A stretch of 64,000 bases of DNA, from the NCBI RefSeq assembly GCF_001442755.1, contig NZ_CP006367.1:3678794-3742793 (forward strand), written 5' to 3'. Position numbers and translations under genes: made by a program. This stretch comes from Aureimonas sp. AU20. Its GTDB lineage: Bacteria; Pseudomonadota; Alphaproteobacteria; Rhizobiales; Rhizobiaceae. The notes beneath the pieces were generated by a model, which saw nothing but the letters and a program-made list of their open reading frames with translations, was not told where the DNA came from and made no database searches. The first letter of the stretch is position 1. Each line of letters opens with the position of its first letter. Below are positions 45,125 through 62,495 of the stretch, piece after piece.

Positions 45125-45769
45125 ATGCGTATTGCCCAGGGTCATCTGGCGTCCTGGCCCCAGACCCCACGTCCCGCCCCTTTCCCCTGGATCAGTTCGG
45201 CGCTTCTGATCGGCTGTCTGGCGCCGCTTCTAGGCCATGCGCTCATGGCGCTGTCCGCCTCGATTTTCCAAGAGAACGGCGCAATCGAGGATGCGCAGGC
45301 GCTGCTTCTGGCCTTTGCAGCGCTCGGCTTCCTAAACGCCTATCGCCGGGCGGGCGATGCCAAGGCGCTGTTCTGCGTGGCGATGGGCGCGCTGTCGATC
45401 CTCGCGCTCCAGCGTGAAATCCCGGCCTGCGAAAGCGCCTTCTTCGAAGGGGGCCTTTGCGTGCCTCGCGCGGCCAAGATTCCTTTATCCGGCGCGGTCG
45501 CCCTTATCGCGGGCATGCTGGCGCTCGCCAAGCGGCCGCGCTGGCGCAGCTTTCTCGACCTTCGCAATCTCGCCTGGGTCTGGCCCGTGGGCATCGCCGC
45601 CCTTCTGCTCGGCGCGGCGGAGCTTGCCGAACACGCCCTGCATCAGGAGATGGAGGAAACGCTGGAATTCGGCGCCTATGCCTATCTCGCGACCTTCGCG
45701 ATCTGGATCGCCCGCGCGCCTGCGGTCGATAAGGCCCACCGGAAAGCGGTGAAGCCCGAAACACGATAG
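45125..45769 (+). CDS. hypothetical integral membrane protein
   Basis: This 214-aa protein is unrecognised. It has about six hydrophobic segments (for example SSALLIGCLAPLLGHALMAL, AQALLLAFAALGFLNAY, GAVALIAGMLALA, WPVGIAALLLGAAELAEHAL and FGAYAYLATFAIWIARA). Two Cys residues (about 101 and 108) lie in a short loop between helices (ACESAFFEGGLCVPR), possibly a disulfide or metal site outside the membrane. The start ATG 45125 has a poor ribosome site, so a later start is possible. It has its own promoter region, cut off from aroQ by the repeat element. Confidence 0.65.
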   Translation: MRIAQGHLASWPQTPRPAPFPWISSALLIGCLAPLLGHALMALSASIFQENGAIEDAQALLLAFAALGFLNAYRRAGDAKALFCVAMGALSILALQREIPACESAFFEGGLCVPRAAKIPLSGAVALIAGMLALAKRPRWRSFLDLRNLAWVWPVGIAALLLGAAELAEHALHQEMEETLEFGAYAYLATFAIWIARAPAVDKAHRKAVKPETR

Positions 45770-45811
45770 GGCCTGTTAAGCAAAAGGCGGAGAGGCCGAG
45801 GCCGCGCCACG

Positions 45812-46150
45812 TCAGGACGCGTCGCCGCCTTCGATCAGGCCCCGCAGAAGGCGCTCGTCCGGCCTCGTCCCGGGCTCGGCTTCGCCATCGGCACCGGGCC
45901 GTCCGTCCAAGAGACCGTCGAGATCCAGTTGCGCGATCTCGTCGTAGAAGCTTTCGGGCGAGACCTGAAGCTGGCGGCTGATGCGAAACAAGCGGCTGGT
46001 GGACAGGCGGCTTTCTCCCGCCTCGTAGCGCAGGATCTGCGCCTCCGAGACCCCGATCCCCTCGCCGAGGCGCTCGGGCGACCATCCCAGCGCTTCCCGC
46101 AATTGTTTCAGGCGTTTGCCCAGCAGCAGATCGAGAGGGTCGTTCGGCAC
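45812..46150 (-). CDS. XRE-type HTH transcriptional regulator
   Basis: This small DNA-binding protein has 112 aa. An HTH_3/XRE domain (about 8-65) includes LKQLREALGWSPERLGEGIGVSEAQILRYE, given as LREALGWSPERLGEG and VSEAQILRYEAGES. The tail is acidic and poorly ordered. The GTG start at 46150 has AAGGA upstream. It lies downstream of, and on the same strand as, the secretion operon 190 bp away, beyond a hairpin. It could regulate that operon, but no operator was identified. Confidence 0.85.
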   Translation of the reverse strand: MPNDPLDLLLGKRLKQLREALGWSPERLGEGIGVSEAQILRYEAGESRLSTSRLFRISRQLQVSPESFYDEIAQLDLDGLLDGRPGADGEAEPGTRPDERLLRGLIEGGDAS

Positions 46151-46298
46151 GTGGTCCTTCGCGCAATCGATAAAGCGTCGAGCGTTCGACGCACCCGCCG
46201 CCGCGTTCGCGCGGGCGGCCCGGAGCCCTGCGACGAGAGACAGCCTTGCGTTGTTTCGGCTCCCCTTTAGGTCGTATTTTCGCCGAACTCAAGGGAGC

Positions 46299-46326
46299 GG
46301 ACCGCCGCAGGACCCGGCGGCGGTCC
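46299..46326 (-). terminator. hairpin after the secretion operon
   Basis: GGACCGCCG (46299-46307) and CGGCGGTCC (46318-46326) form a 9-bp stem 18 bp past the adaptor stop. No T tract follows on the minus strand, so it may stabilise or slow the transcript rather than terminate it cleanly. Confidence 0.4.
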
Positions 46327-46343
46327 CGATGGAGCGACCGCCC

Positions 46344-47711
46344 CTAACGCTCCAGGAAGGCGCGGTTCATGCTGTCCTGCACGGGCTTCACGAGATAGTT
46401 CAGGAAGGTCCGGTGCGAGGTTTCGATGAAGATGTCGGCCGGCATGCCGGGATTGACGCGAAGGCCCGGCACCCGCTCCACCTCGTGCTCCTGCAAGGTG
46501 ACGCGCACGACATAGACATCGCCCATGCGGCCCGGCCGGGGGTCCGGCACCGTGTCGGCCGAAACATAGGTGACGAGGCCGCGCATCTGCGGCGTCGTGC
46601 GCTGGTTGAAGCTGGTGAGGCGCACGCCCGCCGGCTGGCCCGAGCGCACGCCGTTGATGTCGGTCGGGTTGATCAGGGTCTCGATCACCAACTTCTCGTC
46701 GCGCGGCAGGATCTCGGCGATCTGCCGGCCGCTTTCCACGACGCCGCCGGCCGTGTGGTAGTTCAGCTTGACCAGCGTGCCCGAGACGGGCGCGCGCACC
46801 TCGGTGCGGCCGAGCACGCTCTGGGCGGCAAGCAGCTGCTCGCGCATGTCGTCCATGTCGGCCTCGATGCCCTGAAGCTCCTGCGTCGCGCCTTGCTGGA
46901 CCTCCTGGCGCGCCTGGGCGATCTGACCGTCGAGCCGGGCGATCTGCGAGCGCATGTCGCCGAGTTCCCCTTCGATCCGCCCGAGCGAGCCCTCAGCCTC
47001 GGCCGCCGCCCGCTCCACGGTGAAGAGGTCGGAGCGGCGATAGAGCCCTTGTTTGAAGAGGATGGTCTTGGCGGCCAGTTCCTGCCGGATCAGGCTGCCC
47101 TGCCGCTCCACCGCCTGGCGCTGGGCCTGCGAGCCCTCCATGCGCCGGCGCAGCGATTCCTGATTGCGCAGGAGCACGGCGATCTGGCCTTCCAGCGCCC
47201 GGCGGGCGGCGGCGAAGACGCTGCGCTGCCCTTCGAAGACGCGGTCGGCCTCCTTGCGGTCTTCGGCGTCCACCTCGATCGCGCCGAAATCCAGCGTCTC
47301 CTCCCCTGAGATCATGGCCTGGAGGCGGGCGGCGCGCGCCTGGTAGCTGGCAATGCGCAGGAGCAGGCGGCGGACATTGGTGCGCGCCGCCGTCTCGTCC
47401 AGCATCACGAGCGGCTGGCCCTTCTCCACCCTGTCGCCCTCCTCCACCAGGATGGCGCGGATGATGCCGCCTTCGAAGTGCTGCACCTGCTTGTTCTTGC
47501 CGGTGGCGACGAAGGTGCCGTGCGAGACCACGGCGGCGGCGAGCGGGGCGGTGCTCGCCCAGGTGCCGAAGCCGCCAAAGATGACGACCGACAGCGCGAG
47601 GCCGCCGATCACCGTGCCCCGGATGGTGCGCGGCACGCCGACATACCAATCCTCGATCACCTCGCCCGGCCGGGCCGGGCCACGCGTCGCGCCCCCATTT
47701 TTCGCGCTCAT
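46344..47711 (-). CDS. type I secretion periplasmic adaptor (HlyD family)
   Basis: This membrane-fusion protein links the secretion ATPase to an outer-membrane channel. It has 455 aa. A single N-terminal transmembrane helix lies at about 32-52 (VIGGLALSVVIFGGFGTW). The lipoyl/biotinyl half-motif GGIIRAILVEEGDRVEKGQ follows, then long coiled coils (about 105-275) and the second half-motif with RAPVSGTLVKLNYHTAGGVV. The C-terminal beta domain (350-440) ends NYLVKPVQDSMNRAFLER, as in PrtE/LapC-like adaptors. ATGA overlap with the ATPase shows coupled expression. No TolC-type gene is in the window. Confidence 0.93.
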   Translation of the reverse strand: MSAKNGGATRGPARPGEVIEDWYVGVPRTIRGTVIGGLALSVVIFGGFGTWASTAPLAAAVVSHGTFVATGKNKQVQHFEGGIIRAILVEEGDRVEKGQPLVMLDETAARTNVRRLLLRIASYQARAARLQAMISGEETLDFGAIEVDAEDRKEADRVFEGQRSVFAAARRALEGQIAVLLRNQESLRRRMEGSQAQRQAVERQGSLIRQELAAKTILFKQGLYRRSDLFTVERAAAEAEGSLGRIEGELGDMRSQIARLDGQIAQARQEVQQGATQELQGIEADMDDMREQLLAAQSVLGRTEVRAPVSGTLVKLNYHTAGGVVESGRQIAEILPRDEKLVIETLINPTDINGVRSGQPAGVRLTSFNQRTTPQMRGLVTYVSADTVPDPRPGRMGDVYVVRVTLQEHEVERVPGLRVNPGMPADIFIETSHRTFLNYLVKPVQDSMNRAFLER

Positions 47712-49966
47712 GGGACTCTCCGCTGAACGGGAACGTTGCTCTCGCCGGCCGTCTGGCCGGAGATCATCGCCAGGATCTGGTTGCGCTCGCCGATGGCCGA
47801 GATCGCGCCCTTGTCCATCACCATGATCCGGTCGACGCAGCGCAGGAGCGAATGGCGCTGCGTGATGGCGACCACCGTCGTGCCGTTGGCCTTGGCCTTG
47901 GTCATGGCAAGCGCCAGGGCGCGCTCGCCGTCCGTGTCGAGATTGGAGTTCGGCTCGTCCAGCACGACGAGGCGCGGATTGCCGAAAAAGGCGCGCGCCA
48001 GGCCGATGCGCTGCTTCTGCCCGCCCGAAAGCGGCGCGCCGTCGGCGGCGATCACCGTCTCGTAGCCTTGCGGGAAGGAGGCGACGAGCTCGTGGATATC
48101 GGCCAGCATGGCCGCCTCGAACACGTCCTCGTCGAGGGCGTCGTCGCGCATGCGGGCGATGTTGACCTTGATCGAGGCGGGGAAGAGCTGCACGTCCTGC
48201 GGCAGGTAGCCGATGCTCTCGCCGAGCTGGCGCGGGTCCCAGTTCTTGAGGTCCATCAGGTCGAGCCGGACATTGCCAGCCGTCGGCACGATGGAGCCGA
48301 CCAGCATGCGGCCGATCGTGGACTTGCCGGCGCCCGACGAGCCGATGATGCCCAGCGCCTCGCCGGGCTTCAGCGAGAAGGAAAGGCCGTTGAGGATCAC
48401 CTTCTTGTTGGGCGGCGGCACGTAGAGCACGCGGTCGACGTCGAGCCGCCCTTCCGGCCGGGGCAGGCGCAGGCGCTCGACATTCAGCGGCGAGTTGAGG
48501 AGGAGATGCGAGATGCGCCCATAGGCGGCGCGCGACTGGATATAGGTGCGCCAGCCCTCGATCGTGCCCTCCACCGGCGCCAGGGCGCGGCTGGAGATGA
48601 TCGAGGAGGCGATCACCATGCCGCCGGTGAGCTGGCCGTCCAGCGAGAGATAGGCGCCCCAGCCGAGCATGCCGACCTGCGCGAAGAGGCGCAGCGCCTT
48701 GGACAGGGACGAGAAGAAGACGTTGCGGTCCTGCGCCGCGACCTGCGAGCGGAGAGAGGCCGCGTTGTCCCGGCCCCAGAGGCGCACGGCCTCGGGGATC
48801 ATGCCGAGCGCGTTGATGATCTGCGCATTCCGCGACAGGGCGTCGAGCGTCATGTTGGAGCGGGCGTTGTGGCCGGCGGCTTCCGCGAAATGCACCGCCG
48901 TTGCGCGCTTGTTGAAGAAGGCGACCGTCAGGAGCACCAGAACGGAGACGACGACGATGGCGCCCATATGCGGATGCACCAGCCAGACCGCGAAGATGAA
49001 GAGCGGCGCCAGCGGCGCGTCCAGCATGGCGAGCAGCGTCGAGCCAGTGAGAAAGGCGCGGATGTGCTGAAGGTCGGCGAGGATCTGGTAGTCCTTGCCC
49101 GAGCCCGACAGGGCCGAGCGCGAGGCGGCCGCCAGAATGGGCGAGCCGAGCCGCGTTTCCACCTCGACGGCGGTGCGCATCAGGATCGTGCGCCGGATGA
49201 GGTCGAGCGTCACCTGCCCGATGATGGCGCCCACCACGATCAGCGTCAGCATCACCAGCGTGTCGAGCGAGCGCGAGGTGAGCACACGGTCCGAGATCTG
49301 GAACAGGTAGATCGGCACCGCCAGAACCAGGACGTTGACGAGGATCGTGAAGGCGAAGACCCAGGCGATGTTGCGCCGGACGCGCGCCTTGGTCTGCTCC
49401 AGCGCGACGCGGAAGTTCACCTGCTGGCTCTTGCGGGTGATCTGCGAGGCGCCATCGTTGGCGGCGGCTCTACCTTCTGGCAGGAGCGGTCCGCCCGCCT
49501 CGCCCTCGATCGTGGTGCCGCGCAGCGGCGGCGGGCCGGCGCGCTTAGGCTCGGGCGCGCCTTGCGCGGCGGCGGCCGCAGCCGGCGGCCGGACGGGCTC
49601 GGCGGCGGCCGGCGCGAGCGGCGGCGCCTCGATCTCGATCAGCGGCGGCGCGGCCGGCGGGGTGGCAGGCGCGCGCGGCGCTTCGGTACGCGGGGCCGCT
49701 GAGGCAGTGGTTCCTGCGGCCGGTGCGGCGGCAACCTGAATCGGCGCCCCTTGCGGCGCGGTGGCGGCAGGCGCGGCGGCGGCTCGCGCTGCCGTCGGCT
49801 GCGCGGGCACTGGCTCGGGCACCGACACCGACACGGGCGCCGGGAATGGGTCCTGCCCCTCGGCGCGCATGGCGGTCACCGCCGCCTGCATGGAGGCGAA
49901 GATTTCGCGCTCGCGCGCGTCGCGCTCCGGGTCCGACAGGCGCGGGCCGGGTTTTTCCTCGTTCAT
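47708..49966 (-). CDS. type I secretion ABC transporter ATPase/permease
   Basis: This inner-membrane exporter energises type I secretion. It has 752 aa. The first ~165 residues are Ala/Pro-rich, disordered and cytosolic, with no C39 peptidase. Six membrane helices follow (about 195-470). The nucleotide-binding domain has Walker A GSSGAGKST (about 540), the signature LSGGQKQRIGLARA (about 645), Walker B LVVLDEPNSNLD (about 663) and the H-loop ITQRHS (about 702). GAGGGGGA precedes the ATG by about 9 nt. It is the PrtD/LapB-like pump for the two proteins encoded upstream, by position. The long tail-like N-terminus is unusual. Confidence 0.93.
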   Translation of the reverse strand: MNEEKPGPRLSDPERDAREREIFASMQAAVTAMRAEGQDPFPAPVSVSVPEPVPAQPTAARAAAAPAATAPQGAPIQVAAAPAAGTTASAAPRTEAPRAPATPPAAPPLIEIEAPPLAPAAAEPVRPPAAAAAAQGAPEPKRAGPPPLRGTTIEGEAGGPLLPEGRAAANDGASQITRKSQQVNFRVALEQTKARVRRNIAWVFAFTILVNVLVLAVPIYLFQISDRVLTSRSLDTLVMLTLIVVGAIIGQVTLDLIRRTILMRTAVEVETRLGSPILAAASRSALSGSGKDYQILADLQHIRAFLTGSTLLAMLDAPLAPLFIFAVWLVHPHMGAIVVVSVLVLLTVAFFNKRATAVHFAEAAGHNARSNMTLDALSRNAQIINALGMIPEAVRLWGRDNAASLRSQVAAQDRNVFFSSLSKALRLFAQVGMLGWGAYLSLDGQLTGGMVIASSIISSRALAPVEGTIEGWRTYIQSRAAYGRISHLLLNSPLNVERLRLPRPEGRLDVDRVLYVPPPNKKVILNGLSFSLKPGEALGIIGSSGAGKSTIGRMLVGSIVPTAGNVRLDLMDLKNWDPRQLGESIGYLPQDVQLFPASIKVNIARMRDDALDEDVFEAAMLADIHELVASFPQGYETVIAADGAPLSGGQKQRIGLARAFFGNPRLVVLDEPNSNLDTDGERALALAMTKAKANGTTVVAITQRHSLLRCVDRIMVMDKGAISAIGERNQILAMISGQTAGESNVPVQRRVP

Positions 49967-50013
49967 GGCTTGGATCCCCCTCTTGGTCGTCTTCTTGGTC
50001 TTGGATCGGTTGC

Positions 50014-50036
50014 GGCGCGGCCCTTTCGGCCGCGCC
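50014..50036 (-). terminator. intercistronic hairpin upstream of the secretion ATPase
   Basis: GGCGCGGCC and GGCCGCGCC form a perfect 9-bp stem with a 5-nt loop in the 86-bp gap after the 650-aa protein gene. There is no T tract, so it is more likely a stability or attenuation element than a full terminator. Confidence 0.5.
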
Positions 50037-50052
50037 AGGACAGGCGGCCGCC

Positions 50053-52005
50053 TCAGGAAAGGATGCCGCCCACCCCGTCCGCCCCCGCATCGTGGGCAAG
50101 GGTCGCGTGGCTCTGCGACAGGGCGTTGGAGAAATGGTTCGCCCCGTCGCCCTGGATGTCGGAGACGAAGGCGATCACCTCGGGCGCCAGCGTCCCGGTG
50201 TCGAAGGTCTGGATGTCGGGCCCGCTCGCCACGAGATCGGCCTGAAGCAGCATGGAGCCGGAATAGTATTCGCCGCCGAGAAAGCGGACATGGCCGGCAT
50301 CATCGACATCGACGATCCTGGCCTCGTTGAGCAGCGTGTTGCCGCCGGTCGTCACCGTCCACTGCGCGTCGGGCGCCACCGCGTTGGCGATGCGCGCCAG
50401 CGTGCCGTCGGCCATGCGCACTGTGTCGGCATCGTCCAGGATGTTGATCTGCGAGATGACGTTCATCTCGATCACGTCGCCGGTGATGTAGAGAACGCGG
50501 ACATTGTGGGCGCCGAGAAAGGCGAGATCGGAGCCAAGGCTCGGGTCGCCGCTGGCGAGCTTGCTCTGGAAGGCCGAGACAAGGTCGCGCATCTCCGGTG
50601 AGAAGGCCGCGAAATCCCCCACCGCGCCGACATTGTGGATCGAGGCGTGGTTGATCAGGAGATTGCCGGAGGTCGAGACCGAGCCGCCCGTTCCGGCGGC
50701 GTCGGAGACGATCCGGTCGCTGTCGTTCAGGACGTTGATCTGCTGGATGAAATTGCCCTCGTAGACGCTGCCGCCGACGATCACGAGGTCGTAGGAGCCG
50801 AGAAGCTTGGAGAGCTGGGCGACGTTGAGGCTCTCGTTGCCGCCGGTCGCGGCGCGCACCGTGGACTCCATCGAGGAGAGAACCACCTGGTCGCCGTCCA
50901 GCGTCAGCTTCACCTGCCGCAGGAAGTTCGCGATCTCCAGATTGCCCTCGATCACGTCCACCTTGTAATTGGCGGGAAAGCCGTCGCGCGGATCGAGGCC
51001 GGGCCTGGCGCCGGGCGTCGCGTCGGTGCGCTCGAAGACGGCGATGTTGAGGCTGCGCGTCGTATCGGCGATCGCGGTGGACACGGCCTGGCCGAGCCCG
51101 TCGGCCGTGTCGGCATCGGCATGGATGTTGAGCTGGCGGATCGAGTTCACCTCGAACCAGTCGCCCTTGACGGCGGTCACGGCGCCGAGGTGCCCGACAT
51201 TGATCAGGATCGCCTGGTTCACCGAAAGATTGCCGCCGGTCGTGAGGTAGGGCTGATCCTCCGGCAGATCGGCGGGTTTGCGCATGTCTTCGACCAGCGC
51301 GGCGATGTCGGGAGCGGCCTCCAGCCGCTCGCCATTGACGAAGACGCCCTCATGTCCGACCGGCGCGCCGAGCTCGGAGGGCTCATCGCCGGCGGAGGCG
51401 GCGGTCCCTCGCAGCACGCCGGCCAGTTGCGTCGGCATGTGCGGAATGCTGGGGAGGGACATGAAGTCCTTTGCCGCCGTCAGCATCGCCTCGAACTGCT
51501 GCGTCACATGCCCCACCACGGCGAGCGGATCGGCGTCGGGGTCGAGGATCAGCGTGTCGCGATCGTCGAGAAGGCCGATCTGATCCTGGATGGCGAAGAG
51601 CGAGTCGGAGGGAACCGAGCGGTAGTGATAGAGCGCGTCGTGCGGCGCGGAGCCCATCGCTTCCCAACCGGCGGAACTGGGAAGATCGGTGGTCGCGGGC
51701 GCGTGGGCCAGCGGCAGATGCAGCGGGTCGATCGACACCTCGACATGGGGCGGCGCAAGGCGCCGGCCGGTTACCTCTTCGATCTCGAACCGATCGTTGG
51801 CGAGGCGGATGTGAGGATCGCTGACGGGAGGGGAAAGGCCGGCGCTTCGTGCCTCCGGGGCTTCGTCCCGCCCGGCCAGCGGATGGACCCTGGCCAGATG
51901 CGGGCTGCCGGAAAGGAGCCGGTCGTGACTCCCGGGATCGACCTCGTTGACGCGGAACAGGCCGATGAAGCGCGCGATGGTTTCCTGGGCCTCGATCATG
52001 AGCAT
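50053..52005 (-). CDS. 650-aa modular protein, probable type I secretion substrate
   Basis: The protein is acidic, without signal peptide or membrane helix, and lies next to the secretion pump. Residues 1-130 are a unique N-terminal part. From about 255 on, two alternating motifs recur: TxGGN-x-L-x-N-x-A-x-I (255-271, 386-400, 444-460, 552-567) and I-x-Q-I-N-x-L-x-D-x-D-x-V (288-301, 361-375, 418-433, 515-529). They look like beta-strand repeats of a fibre or solenoid. The AAGGAG site lies 8 nt before the ATG. A related protein is annotated only as type I secretion protein in some Rhizobiales, so the function is unknown. A cell-surface or matrix role is inferred. Confidence 0.6.
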   Translation of the reverse strand: MLMIEAQETIARFIGLFRVNEVDPGSHDRLLSGSPHLARVHPLAGRDEAPEARSAGLSPPVSDPHIRLANDRFEIEEVTGRRLAPPHVEVSIDPLHLPLAHAPATTDLPSSAGWEAMGSAPHDALYHYRSVPSDSLFAIQDQIGLLDDRDTLILDPDADPLAVVGHVTQQFEAMLTAAKDFMSLPSIPHMPTQLAGVLRGTAASAGDEPSELGAPVGHEGVFVNGERLEAAPDIAALVEDMRKPADLPEDQPYLTTGGNLSVNQAILINVGHLGAVTAVKGDWFEVNSIRQLNIHADADTADGLGQAVSTAIADTTRSLNIAVFERTDATPGARPGLDPRDGFPANYKVDVIEGNLEIANFLRQVKLTLDGDQVVLSSMESTVRAATGGNESLNVAQLSKLLGSYDLVIVGGSVYEGNFIQQINVLNDSDRIVSDAAGTGGSVSTSGNLLINHASIHNVGAVGDFAAFSPEMRDLVSAFQSKLASGDPSLGSDLAFLGAHNVRVLYITGDVIEMNVISQINILDDADTVRMADGTLARIANAVAPDAQWTVTTGGNTLLNEARIVDVDDAGHVRFLGGEYYSGSMLLQADLVASGPDIQTFDTGTLAPEVIAFVSDIQGDGANHFSNALSQSHATLAHDAGADGVGGILS

Positions 52006-52109
52006 CGGATCGCTCCTTTCGAAACCTCGGTTCTAGGCGGAGGGCTAGGCGGGGCTTAGGAGGAAAAAGGGCCCACGCCGCTCCGGGGAGACGACGCGAG
52101 CCCAAGGAT

Positions 52110-52138
52110 GGAGCGCCCGAGGGGGGCAAGGGCGCTCC
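52110..52138 (-). terminator. intercistronic hairpin after the Asn-rich gene
   Basis: GGAGCGCCC (52110-52118) and GGGCGCTCC (52130-52138) form a 9-bp stem 11 bp after the Asn-rich gene stop. No T tract follows on the minus strand, so it may reduce read-through into the 650-aa gene or protect the upstream mRNA. Confidence 0.5.
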
Positions 52139-52148
52139 GGCTGGAGAT

Positions 52149-53219
52149 TTAGGCGTCGCCGAAGTCGGCCCCGCCCGCGTCGCCGCCCACCACGGCCATG
52201 TCGACGCTGGTGAACTGGATGTTCGCGCCCATCGAGATGTCCATGTTGAGAGCTTCGTGGCCGGCCGAGACGCCCGCCGCCGCGCTGTTGCCCGCCGAAA
52301 GCGTGGAGCTGTCGCCAGCGGTCAGCGTACCGTTGTGCATGGCATCCGCCGTGCCGCCATAGAGGCCCGAGGAGCTGAGGGAGAAGCTGCCGCTGCCGCT
52401 CTGCATCTGCAGGCTGGTGCTCGGCTGGTTCAGCCAATCGCTGTCGTTGAGCGTCGCGATCTGCTGGATGGAGAAGACGTTGCCGTCTCCCAGAAGTGCC
52501 TGCCCGCCTTCCGCGTTTAGGGCGTCGCCGCCGATCGTGCCGATGATGCCGTCGAGCTTGTTGCACAGGCCCGTCACGTCGATCAGGTCGTCGTCGGAAT
52601 TGAACGAGTCGGCGACATGGGTGCTGCTGTCGTTCAGCGAGTCGGCCAGCGAGACGTTGGTGCTGGCGTCGTTGTTCGAGTGGTTCGTGCTCGAATTGGA
52701 GTTGTCGTTGCCAGAGTCGGAGACGCTGTTGTCGCTGTAGTCGTTGCCGGTGTTCGAATTGTCCGAATTGTCGGAGTTGTCCGAATTGTCGTTGTTGGAG
52801 TCGGTCGTGCTCTTGTCGTTGCCGATGTCGGACACGCCGCCCACATCCAGCGAGGTCGAGTTGTCGTTGCCCGAATCCGCGACGCTGTTGTCGCTATAGT
52901 CGTTGCCCTGGTTGGAATTGTCCGAATTGTCGTTGCCCGAATCGTTCACGCTCTTGTCGTTGGCGATGTCGGACACGCCGCCCACGTCCAGCGACGTCGA
53001 ATTGTCGTTGCCGGAGTCGTTGACGCTCGAATTGTTGCCCTGGTTCGAATTGTTCGAATTGTCGTTGTTCGAATTCGTGTCGCTGTTGTCGGACAGGTCG
53101 CTGCTGACGTTCGAACCATCGGCCGACTGGTCGTTGCCCTGGTTCTGGTAGCTCGGCGAATTGACATAGGCTTCCGCGACGGAGCCGGCCAAGGCGGTGG
53201 CGTTGCGATCGACGCTCAT
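52149..53219 (-). CDS. Asn/Asp/Ser-rich repeat protein, probable exported matrix or surface protein
   Basis: This 356-aa protein has extremely biased composition. Residues 20-205 are dominated by Asn, Asp, Ser and Gly, arranged as NDNSDNS-type units. Two near-identical 24-residue blocks (67-90 and 114-137, start DSGNDNSTSLDVGGVSDI) are 47 residues apart; NxGNDYSDNSVxDSGNDNS blocks (103-121, 156-174) recur. The C-terminal third (205-356) is ordered-looking, with a single Cys at 219, and has SIQQIATLNDSD (250-261) like the 650-aa protein. It has no Sec signal. GGGAGAG sits 5 nt before ATG 53219. It heads the secretion operon. Function inferred, not shown. Confidence 0.65.
   Translation of the reverse strand: MSVDRNATALAGSVAEAYVNSPSYQNQGNDQSADGSNVSSDLSDNSDTNSNNDNSNNSNQGNNSSVNDSGNDNSTSLDVGGVSDIANDKSVNDSGNDNSDNSNQGNDYSDNSVADSGNDNSTSLDVGGVSDIGNDKSTTDSNNDNSDNSDNSDNSNTGNDYSDNSVSDSGNDNSNSSTNHSNNDASTNVSLADSLNDSSTHVADSFNSDDDLIDVTGLCNKLDGIIGTIGGDALNAEGGQALLGDGNVFSIQQIATLNDSDWLNQPSTSLQMQSGSGSFSLSSSGLYGGTADAMHNGTLTAGDSSTLSAGNSAAAGVSAGHEALNMDISMGANIQFTSVDMAVVGGDAGGADFGDA
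52690..53110 (-). repeat. tandem/imperfect DNA repeats coding the Asn-rich region
   Basis: The DNA shows repeated GTTGTCGTT/GAATTGTC-like blocks, and two near-identical ~50-bp copies (52821-52871 and 52962-53012) 141 bp apart, equal to the 47-codon protein period. The codon choice is reused, which suggests recent duplication. Confidence 0.8.
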
Positions 53220-53671
53220 GATTCTCTCCCGTTGAAGGATAAGGGCCGCCGTCGCTCCTCTTCTGCGGGAGACGGACATCCGGCCATGTTGGATGGAATG
53301 GGGTTGGTCCTCGCCTTCCTGCCCTCCGGCCCGATACGATTGCGGCGATCCGGGACGTCGGCAAAAAGGTTACGCAACTCGAAGCCCTGTGGCCGAAGCC
53401 GCTTGGGCAGTTTTTCCGGGGCGCTTTACTCCGCCCCTTGCGTCCGCCCCGGTCTTTCGAACTGGTTAAGACATCGTTAAGATTGCTGAAGACGAAGCTT
53501 TTGTCTTGCGGGGAAGAACCCAGCGCATCGTCGGGAGTTTTCCGTCAGGAAGAGAAAGAAGATCGACCGCCCCTAGAATGAGAGGCCAAGTCTCTTCGCA
53601 TTCGCAGCAAGATTTTCGGCCGGATGGACTTGGGCACAGCCCATCGATTCAAAGAAAAAGGGAAGCCCCGC
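53220..53671. promoter_or_regulatory. divergent promoter region of the secretion operon
   Basis: This 452-bp gap serves the Asn-rich gene (minus) and the hypothetical gene at 53672 (plus). The central part, about 53455-53500, is relatively AT-rich. A perfect TTAA-N7-TTAA element is listed separately. No sigma-54 pair (GG-N10-GC) or riboswitch was recognised. Confidence 0.45.
53466..53480. promoter_or_regulatory. CtrA-type TTAA-N7-TTAA site
   Basis: TTAA at 53466-53469 and TTAA at 53477-53480 are separated by exactly seven bases (GACATCG), the full consensus of the CtrA cell-cycle regulator of Alphaproteobacteria. It lies 247 bp upstream of the Asn-rich gene ATG and 190 bp upstream of the ATG at 53672. 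Expected by chance only rarely in GC-rich DNA, but binding is untested. Confidence 0.5.
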
Positions 53672-54271
53672 ATGAAGCCGCCGAGCCAATTGCCGCCGAG
53701 ACCCGATTTCGAGACGATCGAGGCGGCGGCGCGTGATGCGGGCGCCACGGCCGCGCGGGGCGACGTCTTCACGCTGATCGGCCAGCTCTCCTTCAGCTGG
53801 TCCAACAACGAGAGTCTCCTGGTCTATTTCATCATGCTGCTTCTGGGCTGCGACCGGGAAGCGGCGCTGATCGTCTTCGGCACGCTCAACACCAGCCGGG
53901 CTCGGGTCGATCTCGTGCAGCGGCTCGCCCGTGTGAAGCTGACGGACCGTGCCTTGTCGGGCGAGATCAAGCGGCTCATGACCCGCTTCGACACGGGCAC
54001 GCGGCTGCGCAACGACCTGCTCCACGCCATGTTCACGGTGGACGCTGCGGGGCACATCACCCATACGCACGCGATGCGATTGGAGGAGCGCGCCAAGGGC
54101 CTGCGCTTCGGCGCGGCCAAGTCGATGGATAGCGAGCGCCTGGAGGCCATCCGCGGTGAGATCAGGGCGATGAATGAGTTGAACCGGGATCTTTGGACGT
54201 TTCTGCCCCGCCTGGAGGCCAGCCTGCGCGCTTGCCCGCGCGGGCGCTCGAGAGAGGATGGCGGCGCGTGA
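53672..54271 (+). CDS. hypothetical protein with HEPN-like RxxxxH motif
   Basis: This 199-aa soluble protein is unrecognised. It is mostly helical, with charged residues throughout. Residues 45-75 include SFSWSNNESLLVYFIMLLLG, a fairly hydrophobic helix. Near residue 110 it has RNDLLHAMF, an R-x4-H arrangement like the catalytic motif of HEPN-fold RNases or the RN-xxH motif of related non-nuclease families. The start MKPPSQ at 53672 has an AAGGGAAG box; a start at 53624 is possible. It may be transcribed from the divergent promoter shared with the secretion operon. Confidence 0.6.
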   Translation: MKPPSQLPPRPDFETIEAAARDAGATAARGDVFTLIGQLSFSWSNNESLLVYFIMLLLGCDREAALIVFGTLNTSRARVDLVQRLARVKLTDRALSGEIKRLMTRFDTGTRLRNDLLHAMFTVDAAGHITHTHAMRLEERAKGLRFGAAKSMDSERLEAIRGEIRAMNELNRDLWTFLPRLEASLRACPRGRSREDGGA

Positions 54272-54604: not shown

Positions 54605-55309
54605 TCAGTGCGGCCGGCGCTCGTCCTGCTGGGTCTCGAACTCGGTGATCGAGTTGAACCAGCCGGCCCTGTGCGCATAGCGGATGATGTCGGAGCGCGA
54701 GGCGAGGCCGAGCTTGGCGATGGCCCGCGCCTTATAGGTCTCGACCGACTTCTGGCTGATGTCGAGATCCCTGGCGATCTCCTTGGCGCTGTAACCATAG
54801 GCCGTCCGGCGCAGGACCGACATCTCGCGCGCCGAGACGCGGCTCGGCAGGGCGCCGAAGGGCGTGTAGATCGCCTTGTCGAGCCGCGCCGGCTGGGGCG
54901 CGGTCATGATCGGCACGAGGCGCGGATCGAGATAGGTCTCGCCGCCGCCGACGCGCCGCGCGGCGTCCACGAGGTCGGGCTCGCGCGCCGACTTGAGGAG
55001 ATAGCCCCGCGCCCCTGCCGAGAAGGCCGCTTCCACCGCCTCGCGCGTCTTGGCGTGGCCGAGCAGCAGAAGCCCTGAACGCCCGTTCAAGGCACGGCAG
55101 AAGGCGACGAGCGCGTCGTTGTCGAAGCCCGGCATGGCGGCGTCGACCGCCACCACGTCCGCGCCGGGAAGGCGGGCCGCCTCGATGCCGCCGAGAAGGT
55201 CGGTGACGCAGGCTTGAACCTCAAGGCCTGGCTCGTCCTGCCGCTCCATCACGCTGACGAAACCGGCCGCGAAACAAGGCTCGTTCGTAACCAGCAAGAC
55301 GATGCACAT
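54605..55309 (-). CDS. LuxR/NarL-type response regulator with atypical acidic pocket
   Basis: This DNA-binding regulator has 234 aa. A receiver-like domain (1-118) is followed by a GerE/LuxR HTH (about 155-220) with LSxREMxVL-type VSAREMSVLRRTAYGYSAKEIAR and SQKSVETYKARAIAKL. The putative phosphoacceptor is Asp56 (VVAVDAAMP) and the Lys is Lys106 (YLLKSA). The acidic pocket pair is Asn9-Glu10 instead of two acidic residues, so phosphorylation may be weak or altered. GGGAGGGG precedes the ATG. No partner kinase is adjacent, so it is an orphan regulator. It lies upstream of nothing on its own strand and could act on the glycan operon. Confidence 0.88.
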   Translation of the reverse strand: MCIVLLVTNEPCFAAGFVSVMERQDEPGLEVQACVTDLLGGIEAARLPGADVVAVDAAMPGFDNDALVAFCRALNGRSGLLLLGHAKTREAVEAAFSAGARGYLLKSAREPDLVDAARRVGGGETYLDPRLVPIMTAPQPARLDKAIYTPFGALPSRVSAREMSVLRRTAYGYSAKEIARDLDISQKSVETYKARAIAKLGLASRSDIIRYAHRAGWFNSITEFETQQDERRPH

Positions 55310-55950: not shown

Positions 55951-57032
<1,082 letters not shown>

Positions 57033-57036
<4 letters not shown>

Positions 57037-58541
57037 AGATCGTCGTCATTGGAACCGGCTATGTCGGTCTCGTCACCGGCGCGTGCCTGTCGGAGCTCGG
57101 CCACGAGGTCGTCTGCTTCGACACGGACGCCGCCAAGATCGCCCGCCTGCGGCGCGGCGAAATGCCGATCTACGAGCCGGGGCTGGAAGAGCTCGTTCTC
57201 GCCCATTCGGCGAGCGGGCGCCTCGGCTTTGCCACCGGCTCGCTGCCGCTGGACGCGGACACGCAGGCCGTGTTCGTGGCCGTCGGCACCCCGCCTTCCG
57301 CGCTCGACCATTCGGCCGATCTTTCGGCGGTCTTCGCGGTGGCCGAAGCGATCGGGCGCGCCGGCGTCCACTCGCTCGCGGTGATCGTGAAGTCCACCGT
57401 CCCGGTCGGCACGGGCGAGGCGGTGGAGCGCATCCTGCGCGAGACCAGGCCCGAGATCGAGTTCGACGTCGTGTCGAACCCGGAATTCCTGCGCGAGGGC
57501 TCGGCGCTGGCCGATTTCCGCGCGCCGGACCGCATCGTGGTCGGCACGGGCTCCGCTCGCGCCCGCGCGATCCTCGCCGAGATCTACCGGCCGCTGACCG
57601 AGGGCGGCGCGCCGCTCGTCTTCACCGAGCGCGCCTCGGCGGAGATGATCAAATACGCCGCCAACGCCTTTCTGGCCGCCAAGATCGCCTTCATCAACGA
57701 GATCGCCGATCTCTGCGAGGCGGCGGACGCCGATATCGAGGAGGTCTCGCTCGGCGTCGGTCTGGACCGGCGCATCGGCGCGGCCTTCCTGCGGCCGGGA
57801 CCGGGCTTCGGCGGCTCCTGCTTTCCCAAGGACACGGAAGCCCTGCTCGCCACGGCGCAGAGCCATGGCGTGCAGCTGCGCCTCGTGGAAAGCACGGTGG
57901 CGGCCAATGACGGGCGCAAGCGCGCCATGGGCCGGCGCGTCATCCAGGCGATGGGCGGGGTGCGGGGCCGCACGCTGGCCGTGCTCGGCGTCACCTTCAA
58001 GGCCGGCACGGACGACATGCGCCAGGCGCCCTCGCTGCCGATCCTCGCCGCGCTTCGGGCGGCGGGGGCGAGGCTGCGCATCTTCGACCCCGAAGGCATG
58101 GGCCAGGCGCGGGCCTTCCTGCCCGACGCCGACTATGCCGACAGCGCCTATGGCTGCCTGGAAGGGGCCGACGCGGCACTGCTGCTCACCGACTGGCCGG
58201 AGTTCGCCGCGCTGGATCTGCCCCGCGTGGCGGAGCTGATGCGGGGCGACGTGTTCGTGGACCTGCGCAATCTCTTCCCCCTGGAAGAGCTGCGCGCGGC
58301 GGGCCTTCGGGCCTTCGGCATCGGGCGGCGCTCGCGCCTCGCCGTGCCGCAGCCGGTGCGCGGGCGCGCGGTGGAGGACCTGCGCCAGGGGCTTGCCAAC
58401 CCGGCGTCGCCGCCGGTCGCCCCCAGCGTCCTGCCCGTGGCCGGCGTCCTGCCCGAGCCCTCGCCCGCCGACCTGCCGCCGCTCGCGCTCGTCGCGGCGG
58501 CGAAGGCGGCCAAGGCCGGGCTCAACGGCCACGCCGTCTGA
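57033..58541 (+). CDS. ugd: UDP-glucose 6-dehydrogenase
   Basis: This NAD-dependent enzyme oxidises UDP-glucose to UDP-glucuronate. It has 502 aa. The NAD motif is VIGTGYVGLVTGACLSELGH (1-25), followed by VAVGTPPS, VVSNPEFLREG and the catalytic Cys263 in PGFGGSCFPKD. The C-terminal domain includes VLGVTFKAGTDDMR. About 65 extra Ala/Pro/Leu-rich residues extend past the usual end (about 435). ATGA joins it to the decarboxylase gene, so UDP-glucose is converted to UDP-xylose by consecutive products. Confidence 0.94.
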
Positions 58542-58560
58542 CGCGAAGGGAGACGGCCCC

Positions 58561-60090
58561 ATGCACGCTCAAGCGTGGGCGGGGGGCGCGGACACGATTC
58601 TCGTGTCCGCCTTCCTCCTGTCCCAGATCCTCTATGCCCTCTCGCTCGGGCTCGGCCTGTTCTTCCTGCGTCTGCCGGTGGACTGGGTGGACCCGCGCGA
58701 GGCACAAGGCCGCCGGCCGGAGGAGCACCCCTATATCGTGCTCTTCTACCCCGTGCTGCGCGAACTCGAATCCACGATGCGGACGACCTTCCTGTCGCTC
58801 GCCCGCATCGACTATCCCGCTTCGCGCTACCGCGTGGTGGCCATTCCCAACGCCAACGACACGGCCACCGTGGAAAGCTTGCGGCGGCTGGCGCAGGAGT
58901 TCGCCTTCCTGCAGATCGTCGAGGTTCCCGCGACGAGCGATCCGTCCTGGCAGGTCGTGTGGGACAGCTGGAACGCCAATCCGAAGGCCTATTGGTGGCA
59001 CAAGGGCAAGCGGGCGGGCGTCAGTGCACTGCCGCCCAAGAAGACGCGCCAGCTGATCTACGCCTTCTACACGCTGGCCGAGGACATGGCCGGCGGGGAA
59101 GACTTCCTCGTCAACTACATCGACGCCGACAGCTGCCCGCCGCCGGACCATTTCCTCGCCGCCTCGGCGGGGATGCGGCACTACGACGTGCTGCAGGCGC
59201 AGAACATCGCCGGCAATCTCCTCACCTCCATCTCGGCCTCCTGGCACGCCTTCGACCACATGGCCTGGGACGGGTTCCTCTATCCCCATCTCTCGGCCGG
59301 GGGGCGCCAGCCCTACTGGGTGCTGGGCAAGGGCCTGTTCTTCCGGGCCTCCGACCTCGTGGCGCTGGGCGGTTTCCATCCCTGGATCACGATCGAGGAC
59401 CCGGAGGTCGGCATGCGCTTCTGGGCCAACGGCAAGCGCATCGGCATCATCGAGAACCCGCTGATCGAGGAGGTTCCCTCGACGCTCGGGCATGGGATCA
59501 CGCAGCGCAAGCGCTGGGTCTGCGGCTTCTTCCAGAGCCTCGCCCAGCCCTTGAAGGACATGGGGATGACGCCTTGGCAGCGCCTGCGCGCGCGGCTGAA
59601 CTTCGGCCCCTGCCTTTCGCTCTCGGCCCATGCGATCGGCCTGCCCATGGGGCTCTGGGCGCTTGCCGCCTGGAGCGCGGGCGACAGTCCGGTGCCGCCC
59701 TGGACGCTGGGCCTCGCCGTCGTGAACCTCGCGGTCTTCGCGCTGACGCTCGGCGCGATCTACCGCTCGGTCTGGCAGCGCGCCGCGCTGATCCTGCCCG
59801 AGCGGGCCGATCGGCTTCGCTATCTCCTGCGCGTCAACCCGGCCTCGCTCGTCGTCTGGTGGCTGCTTTGGCTGATTCCGCTCGCCATCGGCTTCTGGAT
59901 GTTCCTGCGCGATCGCGGGCTCGTCTGGGAGCGCACGGTGAAGATCGACGCCAACCACGAACTCGTGCGCGCCGTCTCCGGCTCGCAGCCCGCCGTCGTA
60001 CGGCTCGGGGTCGATCTCGCCCCGCCCGCTCCCGCCAATCGCAATCGCATAGTGGAAGCCGAGGCCCCCGTGCCCGGCATCGCCCTCTGA
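58561..60090 (+). CDS. membrane glycosyltransferase, GT2 family
   Basis: This integral glycosyltransferase has 509 aa. An N-terminal helix (about 12-33) precedes the GT-A domain. Visible motifs are NYIDADSCPP (DxD), TIEDPEVGMRFW (catalytic acidic residue) and QRKRWVCGFF (the QxxRW motif of processive beta-synthases). Three helices follow (about 360-470). It resembles cellulose- or hyaluronan-synthase-like enzymes and probably makes or starts the glycan with xylose or glucuronate units. GAAGGGAG lies 8 nt before the ATG. It is the third gene of the operon. Confidence 0.87.
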   Translation: MHAQAWAGGADTILVSAFLLSQILYALSLGLGLFFLRLPVDWVDPREAQGRRPEEHPYIVLFYPVLRELESTMRTTFLSLARIDYPASRYRVVAIPNANDTATVESLRRLAQEFAFLQIVEVPATSDPSWQVVWDSWNANPKAYWWHKGKRAGVSALPPKKTRQLIYAFYTLAEDMAGGEDFLVNYIDADSCPPPDHFLAASAGMRHYDVLQAQNIAGNLLTSISASWHAFDHMAWDGFLYPHLSAGGRQPYWVLGKGLFFRASDLVALGGFHPWITIEDPEVGMRFWANGKRIGIIENPLIEEVPSTLGHGITQRKRWVCGFFQSLAQPLKDMGMTPWQRLRARLNFGPCLSLSAHAIGLPMGLWALAAWSAGDSPVPPWTLGLAVVNLAVFALTLGAIYRSVWQRAALILPERADRLRYLLRVNPASLVVWWLLWLIPLAIGFWMFLRDRGLVWERTVKIDANHELVRAVSGSQPAVVRLGVDLAPPAPANRNRIVEAEAPVPGIAL

Positions 60091-60117
60091 CCCCCCCTGT
60101 TTCAAAGGAAAACTCCC

Positions 60118-61254
60118 ATGTCCAAAGGTCATGTTCTCGTCACCGGCGGCGCCGGCTTCATCGGCTCCCACCTTGTCGACCAGCTTCTCGAACGCGGCTT
60201 CGAGGTCAGCGTGCTCGACTGCCTCAAGCCCCAGGTCCATGCCGACGCGGAGGTGGATGCCGACGGCTGGCCCGTCTATCTCGACCGCCGCGCCCGGCGC
60301 ATCCGGGGCGATCTCCTCGACGACGGCGTGTTCGAGGCGGCGCTCACCGGCGTCACGCATCTCGCCCATCTCGCCGCCTCGGTCGGCGTCGGCCAGTCCA
60401 TGACGAACATCACGGACTATGTCCGCAACAACGTCATGACCGCCGCGATCATGCTGGAGACCCTGTCGCGCCGGCCGCACGGGATTCAGCGCATTGCGGT
60501 CGCCTCCTCCATGTCGATCTATGGCGAGGGTGCCTATCGCGGCCCCTGCGGCACGGTCGCCCCGCCGCTGCGCCCGCACGAGAAGCTGCTGGCCCGCGAG
60601 TGGGAGCTGGAGGACGAGGAGGGCAACGCGCTCGCCCCTGTGCCGACCAACGAGGAGAAGCTGCTCCAGCCCGCCTCGATCTACGCTGTCAACAAGCGCG
60701 ACCACGAGGAGATGTTCCTGTCCGTCGGCCGGGCGCTCGGCATCCCCACCGTGGCGCTGCGCCTGTTCAACGCATACGGCTCGCGACAGGCTCTGTCCAA
60801 CCCCTATACCGGGGTCGCGGCGATCTTCATCTCGCGCCTTCTCAACGACCAGCCGCCGCTGGTTTTCGAGGACGGCTCGCAGCGGCGCGACTTCGTGCAT
60901 GTGCACGACGTCGCCAACGCCTTCGCCACGGTTCTGGAAAGCGAGCGCTCGGTCTGGGACTATTACAATGTCGGCTCGGGCCGCTCCATCACGGTGCGCG
61001 AGATCGCCAGCGTGCTCGCCCGGCTCCTGCACAAGAACATCGCGCCGGAGATCCTGGGCCGCTACCGCGTCGGAGACATCCGGCACTGCTTCGCCGACAT
61101 TTCCAAGCTGGAGCGCGATTTCGGCATCGCGCCCAAGCGCGGCTTCGAGGAGGGCATGGGCGAGCTGATCGAATGGGTGGCGTCGGCCCGACGGCCGGTG
61201 GACCGCGCCGCAACCAGCCTTGGCGAGTTGCAGGGCTCGCGGCTGGTGGTCTGA
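60118..61254 (+). CDS. NAD-dependent nucleotide-sugar epimerase/dehydratase
   Basis: This extended SDR enzyme has 378 aa. The Rossmann motif is VTGGAGFIGSHLVDQL (about 7-22), then HLAASVGVGQSM, SSMSIYGEG and the catalytic Tyr189/Lys193 in YAVNK. LFNAYGSRQALSNPYTGV and GSQRRDFVHVHDVANAF are substrate-side motifs as in UDP-galactose or UDP-glucuronate epimerases. A ~35-residue acidic insert (about 145-180, with PHEKLLAREWELEDEEG) sits before the catalytic Tyr and is not in typical members. AAGGA precedes the ATG. The precise reaction is unknown. Confidence 0.88.
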   Translation: MSKGHVLVTGGAGFIGSHLVDQLLERGFEVSVLDCLKPQVHADAEVDADGWPVYLDRRARRIRGDLLDDGVFEAALTGVTHLAHLAASVGVGQSMTNITDYVRNNVMTAAIMLETLSRRPHGIQRIAVASSMSIYGEGAYRGPCGTVAPPLRPHEKLLAREWELEDEEGNALAPVPTNEEKLLQPASIYAVNKRDHEEMFLSVGRALGIPTVALRLFNAYGSRQALSNPYTGVAAIFISRLLNDQPPLVFEDGSQRRDFVHVHDVANAFATVLESERSVWDYYNVGSGRSITVREIASVLARLLHKNIAPEILGRYRVGDIRHCFADISKLERDFGIAPKRGFEEGMGELIEWVASARRPVDRAATSLGELQGSRLVV

Positions 61255-61256
61255 CC

Positions 61257-62495
61257 TCAGAAGCCGAGCGGGCGCCGCTCGAAGGCCGCCAGAATCGCCT
61301 CGCGCATCGGCGCGGGGCGCATGTCGGAATCATAGGGCAGGCCCCGGTTGAAGCCGGGGCCTTTGCCTTGCCCGCCGACGAGGCGCCAGTAAAAATCCAG
61401 ATCCTCCGGCTCGATCGCCAGCCAGGAATGGCGCGTCGACAGGCCCCAGGTGGAGACGGCGCGCACGGCCGCGCAGTCCAGCGCCACGTCGAGATAGCGC
61501 TTGGCGATCTCAGCCACGAGCCGGTCGCGCACCAGGGGCGGCGCGGTCAGGTCGTGCTCGCGTACGTCGAGTTCGGTGATGTGGATTTCGAGGCCGAACC
61601 CGCTGAGATCGCGCAGAAAACCGGCGAAGAGGGGTTCGGAAAAAGGCCCCTTGCGCAGGTCGAGATGGCCCTGGAGGCCGATGCCGCCGAGCGGCGCGCC
61701 GGCTTGCCTCAACCGCTCCACCAGCTTGAGGAAGAGATAACGCCGGTCCCGCTCCACGGGAATGTCGTAGTCGAGCCCGTATTCGTTGAGGAACAGGACG
61801 GCGCCGGGCGCATGGGCGCGCGCCTCGTGAAAGGCGCGCTCGATATACCCTTCCCCGAAGGCGCGCAGGAACGTGCCGTCCCGCAGGCCGTCCATCCGGT
61901 GTCCCGTGTCGATCGGCTCGTTCACCACGTCCCAGGTCGCGATCTCATTGCCGTAGCGCCCGAGCACGGCCTCGAAATGGGCCGCGACCGGCGCCCAGCC
62001 CGCCCCCTCCGCCAGCGCGGCCTCCGCCCAGGGCGGAATGCTTCGGTGCCAGATCAGGGTGTGGCCGTGCAGGGCGCGCCCGTTCTCGGTGGCAAAGCGC
62101 AGAAGCGCGTCGCTGCGGGAAAAGTCGCGCCGACCCGGCTCGGGCTCGATCGCGTCCCATTTCATCGAGATTTCCGGGGTCAGCGCGTCGCATTCGACAA
62201 GCAGCGCTTCGGCAAGATCGGGCTCGGCGGCGATCTGCTCGGCCCGCGCGGCCGCGCCGAAGCGCCGGCCAGAGCGCGCCGCCGCTTCCCGCAGCGAGGC
62301 GCGCTCGGGCGCGCGCGCCCGCTCAGTGGGAAGCGTGAACAGGGCGCCCGCCCCCAGGAGGAGGTTGCGCCGGCTCAAGACGGGGGAATCTGCGGGTGAG
62401 GAAGCGTCCGCCTCCCCCGCCGCCCCTTCAGGCCCGCGCCGACGCTCGCGTTCGGCCCGCAGCCGCCCGGCCCGTCCGATGGTTTCGGGGGGCAT
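61257..62495 (-). CDS. endo-1,4-beta-xylanase, GH10 family
   Basis: This glycoside hydrolase has 412 aa and cleaves beta-1,4-linked xylose. The N-terminus holds a twin-arginine-like signal ([16 protein letters not shown], about 41-56), so export through Tat is likely. GH10 motifs are [19 protein letters not shown] (acid/base Glu193) and [11 protein letters not shown] (nucleophile Glu308). Its C-terminal coding DNA contains a terminator-like hairpin (61339-61362). It converges on the UDP-xylose operon, which suggests trimming of a xylose-containing exopolysaccharide rather than plant xylan use. Its own promoter is in the gap before 62505. Confidence 0.92.
61339..61362 (+). terminator. terminator-like hairpin inside the GH10 gene
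   Basis: AGGCCCCGG and CCGGGGCCT form a 9-bp stem with a 6-nt loop, 85 bp past the end of the plus-strand glycan operon but inside the convergent xylanase frame. A short TTG follows. It may end the glycan operon transcript. Confidence 0.4.

Follow-up and report, generated by a model that had tools for sequence, protein, structure and literature searches.

The closest described counterpart of the locus analyzed here is very probably the ToaDE exporter of Rhizobium leguminosarum bv. viciae 3841. Together with TobDE it was termed enigmatic by Krehenbrink and Downie (2008), and no substrate was found (PMC2275737). According to the accessible parts of that paper, no gene for a known type I substrate is located within 10 kb of toaDE or tobDE. 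Supernatant proteins, biofilm, motility, glycanase and nodulation were unchanged in the toaD mutant, double and triple exporter mutants showed prsD effects only, and export of a non-protein by the toaD system was considered possible by the authors (PMC2275737, accessible parts).

In the PrtD/PrsD-type systems with RTX cargo, the ABC protein and the HlyD adaptor belong to the TIGR01842 and TIGR01843 subfamilies and the TolC gene is unlinked. LapA-type retained adhesins carry an N-terminal retention module that is cleaved by LapG, and curli repeats show a regular spacing of Asn and Gln. A non-RTX protein, HasA (about 19 kDa), is exported by the type I exporter HasD, which is described without an N-terminal addition in the accessible text (PMC11026475). 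In Caulobacter, the Cdz system consists of two proteins and the type I system CdzAB, encoded in divergent operons, and forms aggregates on the cell surface (PMC5380434, accessible parts).

The window, i.e., the whole analyzed stretch of 64,000 nucleotides from Aureimonas sp. AU20, contains four genes on the minus strand in the order A, B, PrtD-type ABC and HlyD adaptor, together with a divergent neighbor, here named U. The following features were annotated:

46344..47711, minus strand: HlyD-type periplasmic adaptor (ToaE type), TIGR01843 378 bits with a cut-off of 209
47708..49966, minus strand: PrtD-type type I ABC exporter (ToaD type), TIGR01842 698 bits with a cut-off of 510
49316..49966, minus strand: Ala/Pro-rich N-terminal extension of the ABC protein, 217 residues up to the first conserved membrane motif, from sequence comparison
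50014..50036, minus strand: hairpin in the B-ABC gap, 9-bp stem, from the window sequence only
50053..52005, minus strand: B, acidic candidate cargo of 650 aa (ORF; some relatives are named 'Type I secretion protein')
50056..50085, minus strand: extreme C-terminus of B with hydrophobic residues after an acidic one, candidate for a type I signal (loose pattern)
50218..51645, minus strand: residues 121-596 of B, modules predicted to be rich in beta-strands (GN..N.A.I / GD..E.N.I.QIN.L.D.D), from the AlphaFold model and the module list
50716..50745, minus strand: motif QQINVLNDSD in B, literal match
52110..52138, minus strand: hairpin after A in the A-B gap, 9-bp perfect stem without T-run
52149..53219, minus strand: A, Asn/Asp/Ser-rich acidic protein of 356 aa, candidate cargo (ORF, composition, conserved position of the A family)
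52437..52466, minus strand: motif QQIATLNDSD in A, literal match
53624..54271, plus strand: U, divergent conserved protein, modeled as a helical bundle, with an invariant R-N-x3-H (the start may be located further in), from model and loci
54605..55309, minus strand: LuxR/NarL-type regulator

The basic layout agrees with the first-pass annotation. All four genes were recovered by ORFs and family profile matches, the ATGA overlap of the ABC and HlyD genes is located at 47708-47711, and 9-bp stems are present in both the A-B and the B-ABC gap. No Sec-like N-terminus could be found, as had been claimed; the maximal mean hydropathy over 15 residues within the first 40 residues is 0.68 for A and 0.89 for B. 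Neither A nor B matched the RTX family PF00353 at E up to 1, again as proposed, and the 41 RTX matches in the genome all lie outside the window. Both A and B are single-copy in the genome and occur in this operon. The N-terminal extension of the ABC protein and the conserved neighbor U are additions to the first reading of the sequence.

Compared with the PrtD/PrsD-type RTX systems, the subfamilies of ABC and HlyD and the unlinked TolC are the same, whereas the candidates have no RTX repeats and the ABCs linked to B are longer at the N-terminus. As with HasA, non-RTX cargo would pass a type I exporter, but the ABC protein is extended and two larger candidates are present. Cdz shares with this locus a type I system, two cargo proteins, a divergent gene and an alphaproteobacterial host. 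Regularly spaced Asn/Gln repeats and long beta-strands are features in common with curli and Fap, and CsgA and FapC were among the non-significant fold matches. Membership in the curli family was rejected, as no curlin Pfam repeat was found in A or B (E up to 1) and no fold match was significant (CsgA with an E-value of 0.097). The exporter is also of another type.

Taken as a whole, the locus is probably a conserved, dedicated non-RTX type I secretion cassette that exports two cargo proteins of its own, a reading we hold with moderate confidence. Export of A and B is suggested by their linkage, the exporter type, their acidity and the absent Sec signal. The first-pass annotation had proposed a dedicated system with two non-RTX cargo proteins, and comparative genomics supports this proposal well through the near-universal linkage given B, the single exporter clade and the acidic character of both candidates. 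The matrix, adhesin or fiber function that it also suggested is putative.

For the distribution of the cassette, a profile of B was searched against one genome per species. A relative was encoded in 245 stretches, the best 80 of which were retrieved. Even sampling gave a B match in 35 of 397 genomes of the order (32 strong and 3 weak matches), 2 of 385 of the class and 8 of 299 of the phylum, each count including the window's own genome. Two genomes with a strong B outside the order (G581 and G878) keep A, B, ABC, HlyD and U, with two A genes in G581. Two tandem A paralogues before B were observed in L186 (7012-11124), which belongs to a genome of another alphaproteobacterial order. The cassette was found in species of Rhizobium, Sinorhizobium/Ensifer, Mesorhizobium, Neorhizobium, Aminobacter, Devosia, Aureimonas and others.

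Gene linkage was determined in 109 loci, 80 from the species search and 29 from the order sample, the window's own locus being excluded. They comprise 107 distinct B proteins; at least two pairs are one protein found by two tools. Upstream of B, 95 of the 97 loci with 900 bases on that side carry a gene of the A family, recognized at a profile E-value of up to 1e-3 (of the 22 rows in the profile, 14 stem from such loci). It is missing in L047, which is a broken plasmid copy, and in L131, which has an A-type ORF at a greater distance upstream. Where 1,000 bases downstream of B were available, 107 of 108 loci have the ABC gene, and where 4,500 were available, all 74 have the HlyD gene. These counts are conditional and not independent, since the loci were found through B and include duplicate B pairs.

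The occurrence of cargo genes apart from a type I system, which had been named as the point that would speak against the proposal, was checked in part. The one locus without a downstream ABC gene (L137) ends inside the ABC extension, and in G289, G108 and G267, three genomes with very weak B matches, the matching ORF likewise directly precedes an ABC and HlyD pair. No A-type gene was recognized in these three genomes. A distant B-like ORF before ABC and HlyD was observed in L183 (7241-14043), with a 1569-aa ORF directly upstream that is possibly another type of cargo. On a plasmid of Rhizobium sp. RCAM05350 (L047, 7445-14945) the cassette is broken, with B in two ORFs and the ABC and HlyD genes in pieces.

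The next-best type I subfamily for the ABC protein reached 364 bits. Other PrtD-type ABCs are encoded elsewhere in the window's genome, three of them exceeding the cut-off. In a tree of ABC proteins from this genome and eight related genomes, 26 B-linked ABCs fall on one side of a branch with a support of 100/100, with none of 27 other PrtD-type ABCs inside. Out of 28 chosen rows L162 had been dropped for its length, and 4 of 34 matches, those without a locus, were unused. The seven ABCs of G069 and G187, which are the two among the eight genomes that have no B, do not join the B-linked clade.

The N-terminal extension was compared in the rows chosen for the tree. Up to the first membrane motif, 117-482 residues were counted in the 26 B-linked ABCs and 7-130 in 28 other PrtD ABCs; these lengths are upper bounds, counted from the first start codon. 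Across 100 B-linked ABC ORFs the extension has a median of 233 residues and a range of 35-908, and short extensions were found in L101 (35 residues) and in the broken copy L047 (87 residues). In 100 ORFs with more than 60 residues, the window's copy included, the extension has a high content of Ala, Pro and Gly, and 69 of them contain a motif like IEGDxGPL. If the cassette reading is true, long N-terminal extensions mark an exporter subtype. A TolC-family gene (C1:2639458-2640741, TIGR01844 above cut-off) is unlinked to the operon and may provide the outer channel of the A/B exporter.

The start of A was set to the ATG at 53219, which follows the sequence GGGAGA; the longest ORF begins at 53279 and comprises 376 aa. 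A consists of 19% S, 16% N and 14% D and has a net charge of -50. All of 99 A proteins are net negative with a median charge of -61. The conserved region of the family is C-terminal and could be aligned across the relatives. The C-terminus is acidic, often ends with GDA or GEDDA and is unlike that of B. No Pfam or NCBIfam family was found for A above cut-off.

Relatives of A from Rhizobium and Agrobacterium (P0048 and others) carry the names 'fibrinogen-binding protein' or 'MSCRAMM family adhesin SdrC', which probably come from low-complexity similarity. MSCRAMM/Sdr fibrinogen-binding proteins have a Sec signal, Pfam adhesin domains and an LPXTG anchor. The sequence of A has no Pfam match, no hydrophobic N-terminus and no LPxTG, and the assignment was rejected. 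The term 'fibrinogen-binding protein' was not found among the literature matches listed (15 of 4,318 and 12 of 1,475). If the cassette exports A, proteins named in this way would need renaming.

B is acidic as well, with a median net charge of -76 over 79 B proteins. Its closest relative is a protein of Aureimonas sp. AU40 (98% identical), and relatives from many genera can be aligned. The core is predicted to be beta-rich (AlphaFold); the mean pLDDT of the whole protein is 67, and in the blocks between residues 121 and 590 it ranges from 50 to 93, mostly above 70. The model had no significant match to any solved structure. No Pfam or NCBIfam family was above cut-off, the only Pfam line being Flavodoxin_5 with an E-value of 0.18. 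An N-terminal motif, the pattern of which was written with the sequences in view, is kept in 72 of 79 B proteins. The loose acidic-hydrophobic pattern at the C-terminus was found in 76 of 79, compared to 9.7 per shuffle, and this end may act as the type I export signal.

For the relationship between the two candidates a shared segment QQI-x2-LNDSD had been claimed, and it is present literally in both. A looser form, written with these sequences in view and after the strict pattern, occurs 290 times in 79 aligned B proteins compared to 13.9 times per shuffle, and 19 times in 22 A rows compared to 3.1. The strict central-motif pattern was found in A in 9 of 79 cases. Beyond the short motif, profile comparison gave no indication of homology between A and B (hhalign probability 5%).

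The gap between A and B contains a conserved hairpin. A perfect stem of at least 9 bp after A was detected in 87 of 100 A-B gaps, or in 85 of 98 when identical gaps are counted once, and 54 different sequences occur in its arms. Control stretches of 100 bases contained such a stem in 1 of 99 cases inside B and in 0 of 99 cases upstream of A. When the first 70 bases were folded, 79 of 98 gaps had a z-score below -2, in a set that counted the window two times and also contained some A ORFs that had not been verified; the z-score of the window itself is -1.0. A classical terminator was rejected, as a T-run is present in only 8 of the 87 stems, and a terminator scan of 45700-53700 yielded 4 matches compared to 4.5 in shuffles. 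The rarity of T-runs makes a 3' stabilizer or an attenuator more likely than a terminator. The hairpin would be consistent with production of A in excess.

In the proposed mechanism, the ABC protein, the HlyD adaptor and the unlinked TolC would export A and B unfolded and in one step, without RTX repeats. The exporter would recognize B by its conserved acidic-hydrophobic C-terminus. The hairpin would let A accumulate as an abundant product, while B and the exporter would be made at a lower level. Outside the cell, the acidic low-complexity protein A and the beta-repeat protein B may form or bind surface or matrix material, a role suggested by composition, beta repeats and the polysaccharide cluster adjacent in this window.

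The differences between A and B in type, C-terminus and conservation, the position of the hairpin between A and the B-ABC-HlyD genes and the lack of profile homology would also suit a system with a single cargo protein, such as A as the exported bulk protein with B as surface tether, chaperone or assembly partner retained by the cell, or the reverse. Both proteins, however, are strongly acidic, have no Sec-like N-terminus and carry the same short motif, and B keeps its N-terminal motif as well as its C-terminal end. A single cargo protein is regarded as rather unlikely, and export of both remains the preferred reading.

The cassette is also present in L100, Rhizobium johnstonii 3841; judging by the strain number, this is R. 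leguminosarum bv. viciae 3841 from the ToaDE study (PMC2275737). In the chromosome of this strain the B-linked ABC is encoded at 91523-93148 with HlyD next to it and A and B directly upstream. Exactly three PrtD ABCs above cut-off were identified in the record, at 0.09, 0.67 and 3.85 Mb, and these positions fit the order expected for RL0072, RL0623 and RL3658. The ORF of the first one has a single NcoI site, as in the published toaD disruption. Based on the order of the three ABCs and this site, the exporter of the cassette is very probably toaDE (RL0072/RL0071), and RL0073 and RL0074 would be, from the gene order, the tags of B and A. We propose that the two genes directly upstream of toaDE encode the missing cargo.

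The accessible parts of the ToaDE paper name the exporter and do not mention A, B, U or the hairpin (PMC2275737). In a literature search, with subscription papers largely outside its range, RL0072 was found in no paper other than PMC2275737, the one paper with RL0073 concerns unrelated chemistry, and RL0074 was found nowhere. The accessible text of PMC4018554, PMC4085339 and PMC4696191 contains nothing on this locus. With A, B and U, the system termed enigmatic in 2008 gains two concrete cargo candidates and a co-inherited partner gene. If the assignment is true, type I export of non-RTX proteins by alphaproteobacteria associated with plants and soil would extend beyond what the RTX systems suggest.

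The unchanged phenotype of the toaD mutant counts against the proposal, unless the operon is silent in Y-mannitol medium, or the products are retained by the cell or poorly stained. It would be accounted for if the exporter carried something else, such as a small molecule or part of a glycan, with A and B as intracellular or periplasmic partners. The 2008 study found no toaD-dependent protein and raised this option itself (PMC2275737, accessible parts), and polysaccharide genes adjoin the operon in the window. Yet the ABC protein is of the PrtD protein exporter type by a wide margin and is paired with an HlyD-type adaptor, and the acidic low-complexity and repeat proteins A and B appear to resemble type I cargo more than enzymes, so that another substrate is considered very unlikely. 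Further points against the cassette reading are the unlike C-termini of A and B and their lack of profile homology, the absence of a significant structural match for the B model, the weak-B genomes in which neither U nor an A-type gene was recognized, and the limited spread of the polysaccharide neighborhood.

In all 62 loci that extend for 4,500 bases or more to either side, U was found near B. It is mostly located upstream and divergent, in other loci downstream and co-directional. Within the order sample, a strong U match was obtained in 34 genomes, comprising all 32 with a strong B plus G294 and G353. For the co-occurrence of U and B a Fisher p of 4e-45 was obtained, uncorrected for relatedness and with the weak matches set aside, two for U (G340 and G098) and three for B. 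No cassette was found in 19 kb around U in G294, and U is near a contig end in G353. The three weak-B genomes G289, G108 and G267 had no U match.

The U protein comprises about 200 aa and was modeled as a helical bundle with a beta insertion (pLDDT 88). Residues R114, N115 and H119 are invariant in 22 aligned rows. This R-N-x3-H fits the pattern R-x(4-6)-H, the HEPN signature. No Pfam family was found above cut-off, no HEPN family among the Pfam matches at E up to 1, no significant PDB match in the fold searches and no HEPN structure among the matches shown; by its motif, U is a candidate HEPN protein. The model resembles one predicted viral protein, A0A4Y5TZQ9 (E 0.0039, probability 1.00, TM 0.56/0.68).

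A surface-retained two-protein bacteriocin like Cdz, with U as immunity or control protein, would agree with the two-protein layout and with the co-inheritance of U and B in all 32 strong-B genomes, but it is highly improbable. Membership by cargo was rejected, as CdzC and CdzD are small glycine-zipper proteins of 86 and 84 aa (PMC5380434, accessible parts) compared to 356 and 650 aa here. CdzI is a small transmembrane protein (PMC5380434, accessible parts), and U comprises about 200 aa and is modeled as a helical bundle with a beta insertion. In addition, U occurs without B in G294 and G353, and a fast-changing toxin would not be expected to align across many genera as B does.

With A and B both taken as cargo, a more far-reaching model can be drawn, which we regard as speculative and, in its entirety, distinctly unlikely. 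ToaDE-type systems would form a separate non-RTX branch of type I exporters that secretes a two-part surface polymer, with A as bulk subunit and B as beta-repeat partner or nucleator templating A via Q-I-N-x-L-x-D-x-D. The hairpin after A would set the cargo dosage, and U, as a possible HEPN-type protein acting on RNA, would control the mRNA.

Of 62 loci, 48 have a LuxR-family gene like the one in the window in the vicinity of B, and 19 have a GNAT/TPR-type gene there. CsgD was rejected as regulator, since L075 and L100 have LuxR genes with 55.9 and 61.2 bits, far below the CsgD cut-off of 250, and the regulator is therefore assigned to the LuxR/NarL family only. Downstream of HlyD, a small XRE-type regulator is encoded on the same strand (45812-46150). 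It was rejected as a member of the cassette, since no match at E 1e-5 was found in 67 loci, some of them with a short downstream flank.

A polysaccharide cluster was observed at 55951-62495 of the window, including a UXS-like epimerase, a UDP-glucose dehydrogenase, a family 2 glycosyltransferase and a second epimerase. The UXS-like match was found near B in 9 of 67 loci, i.e., the polysaccharide neighborhood is not general. The cluster also contains, on the other strand, a gene of family GH10 (xylanase family).
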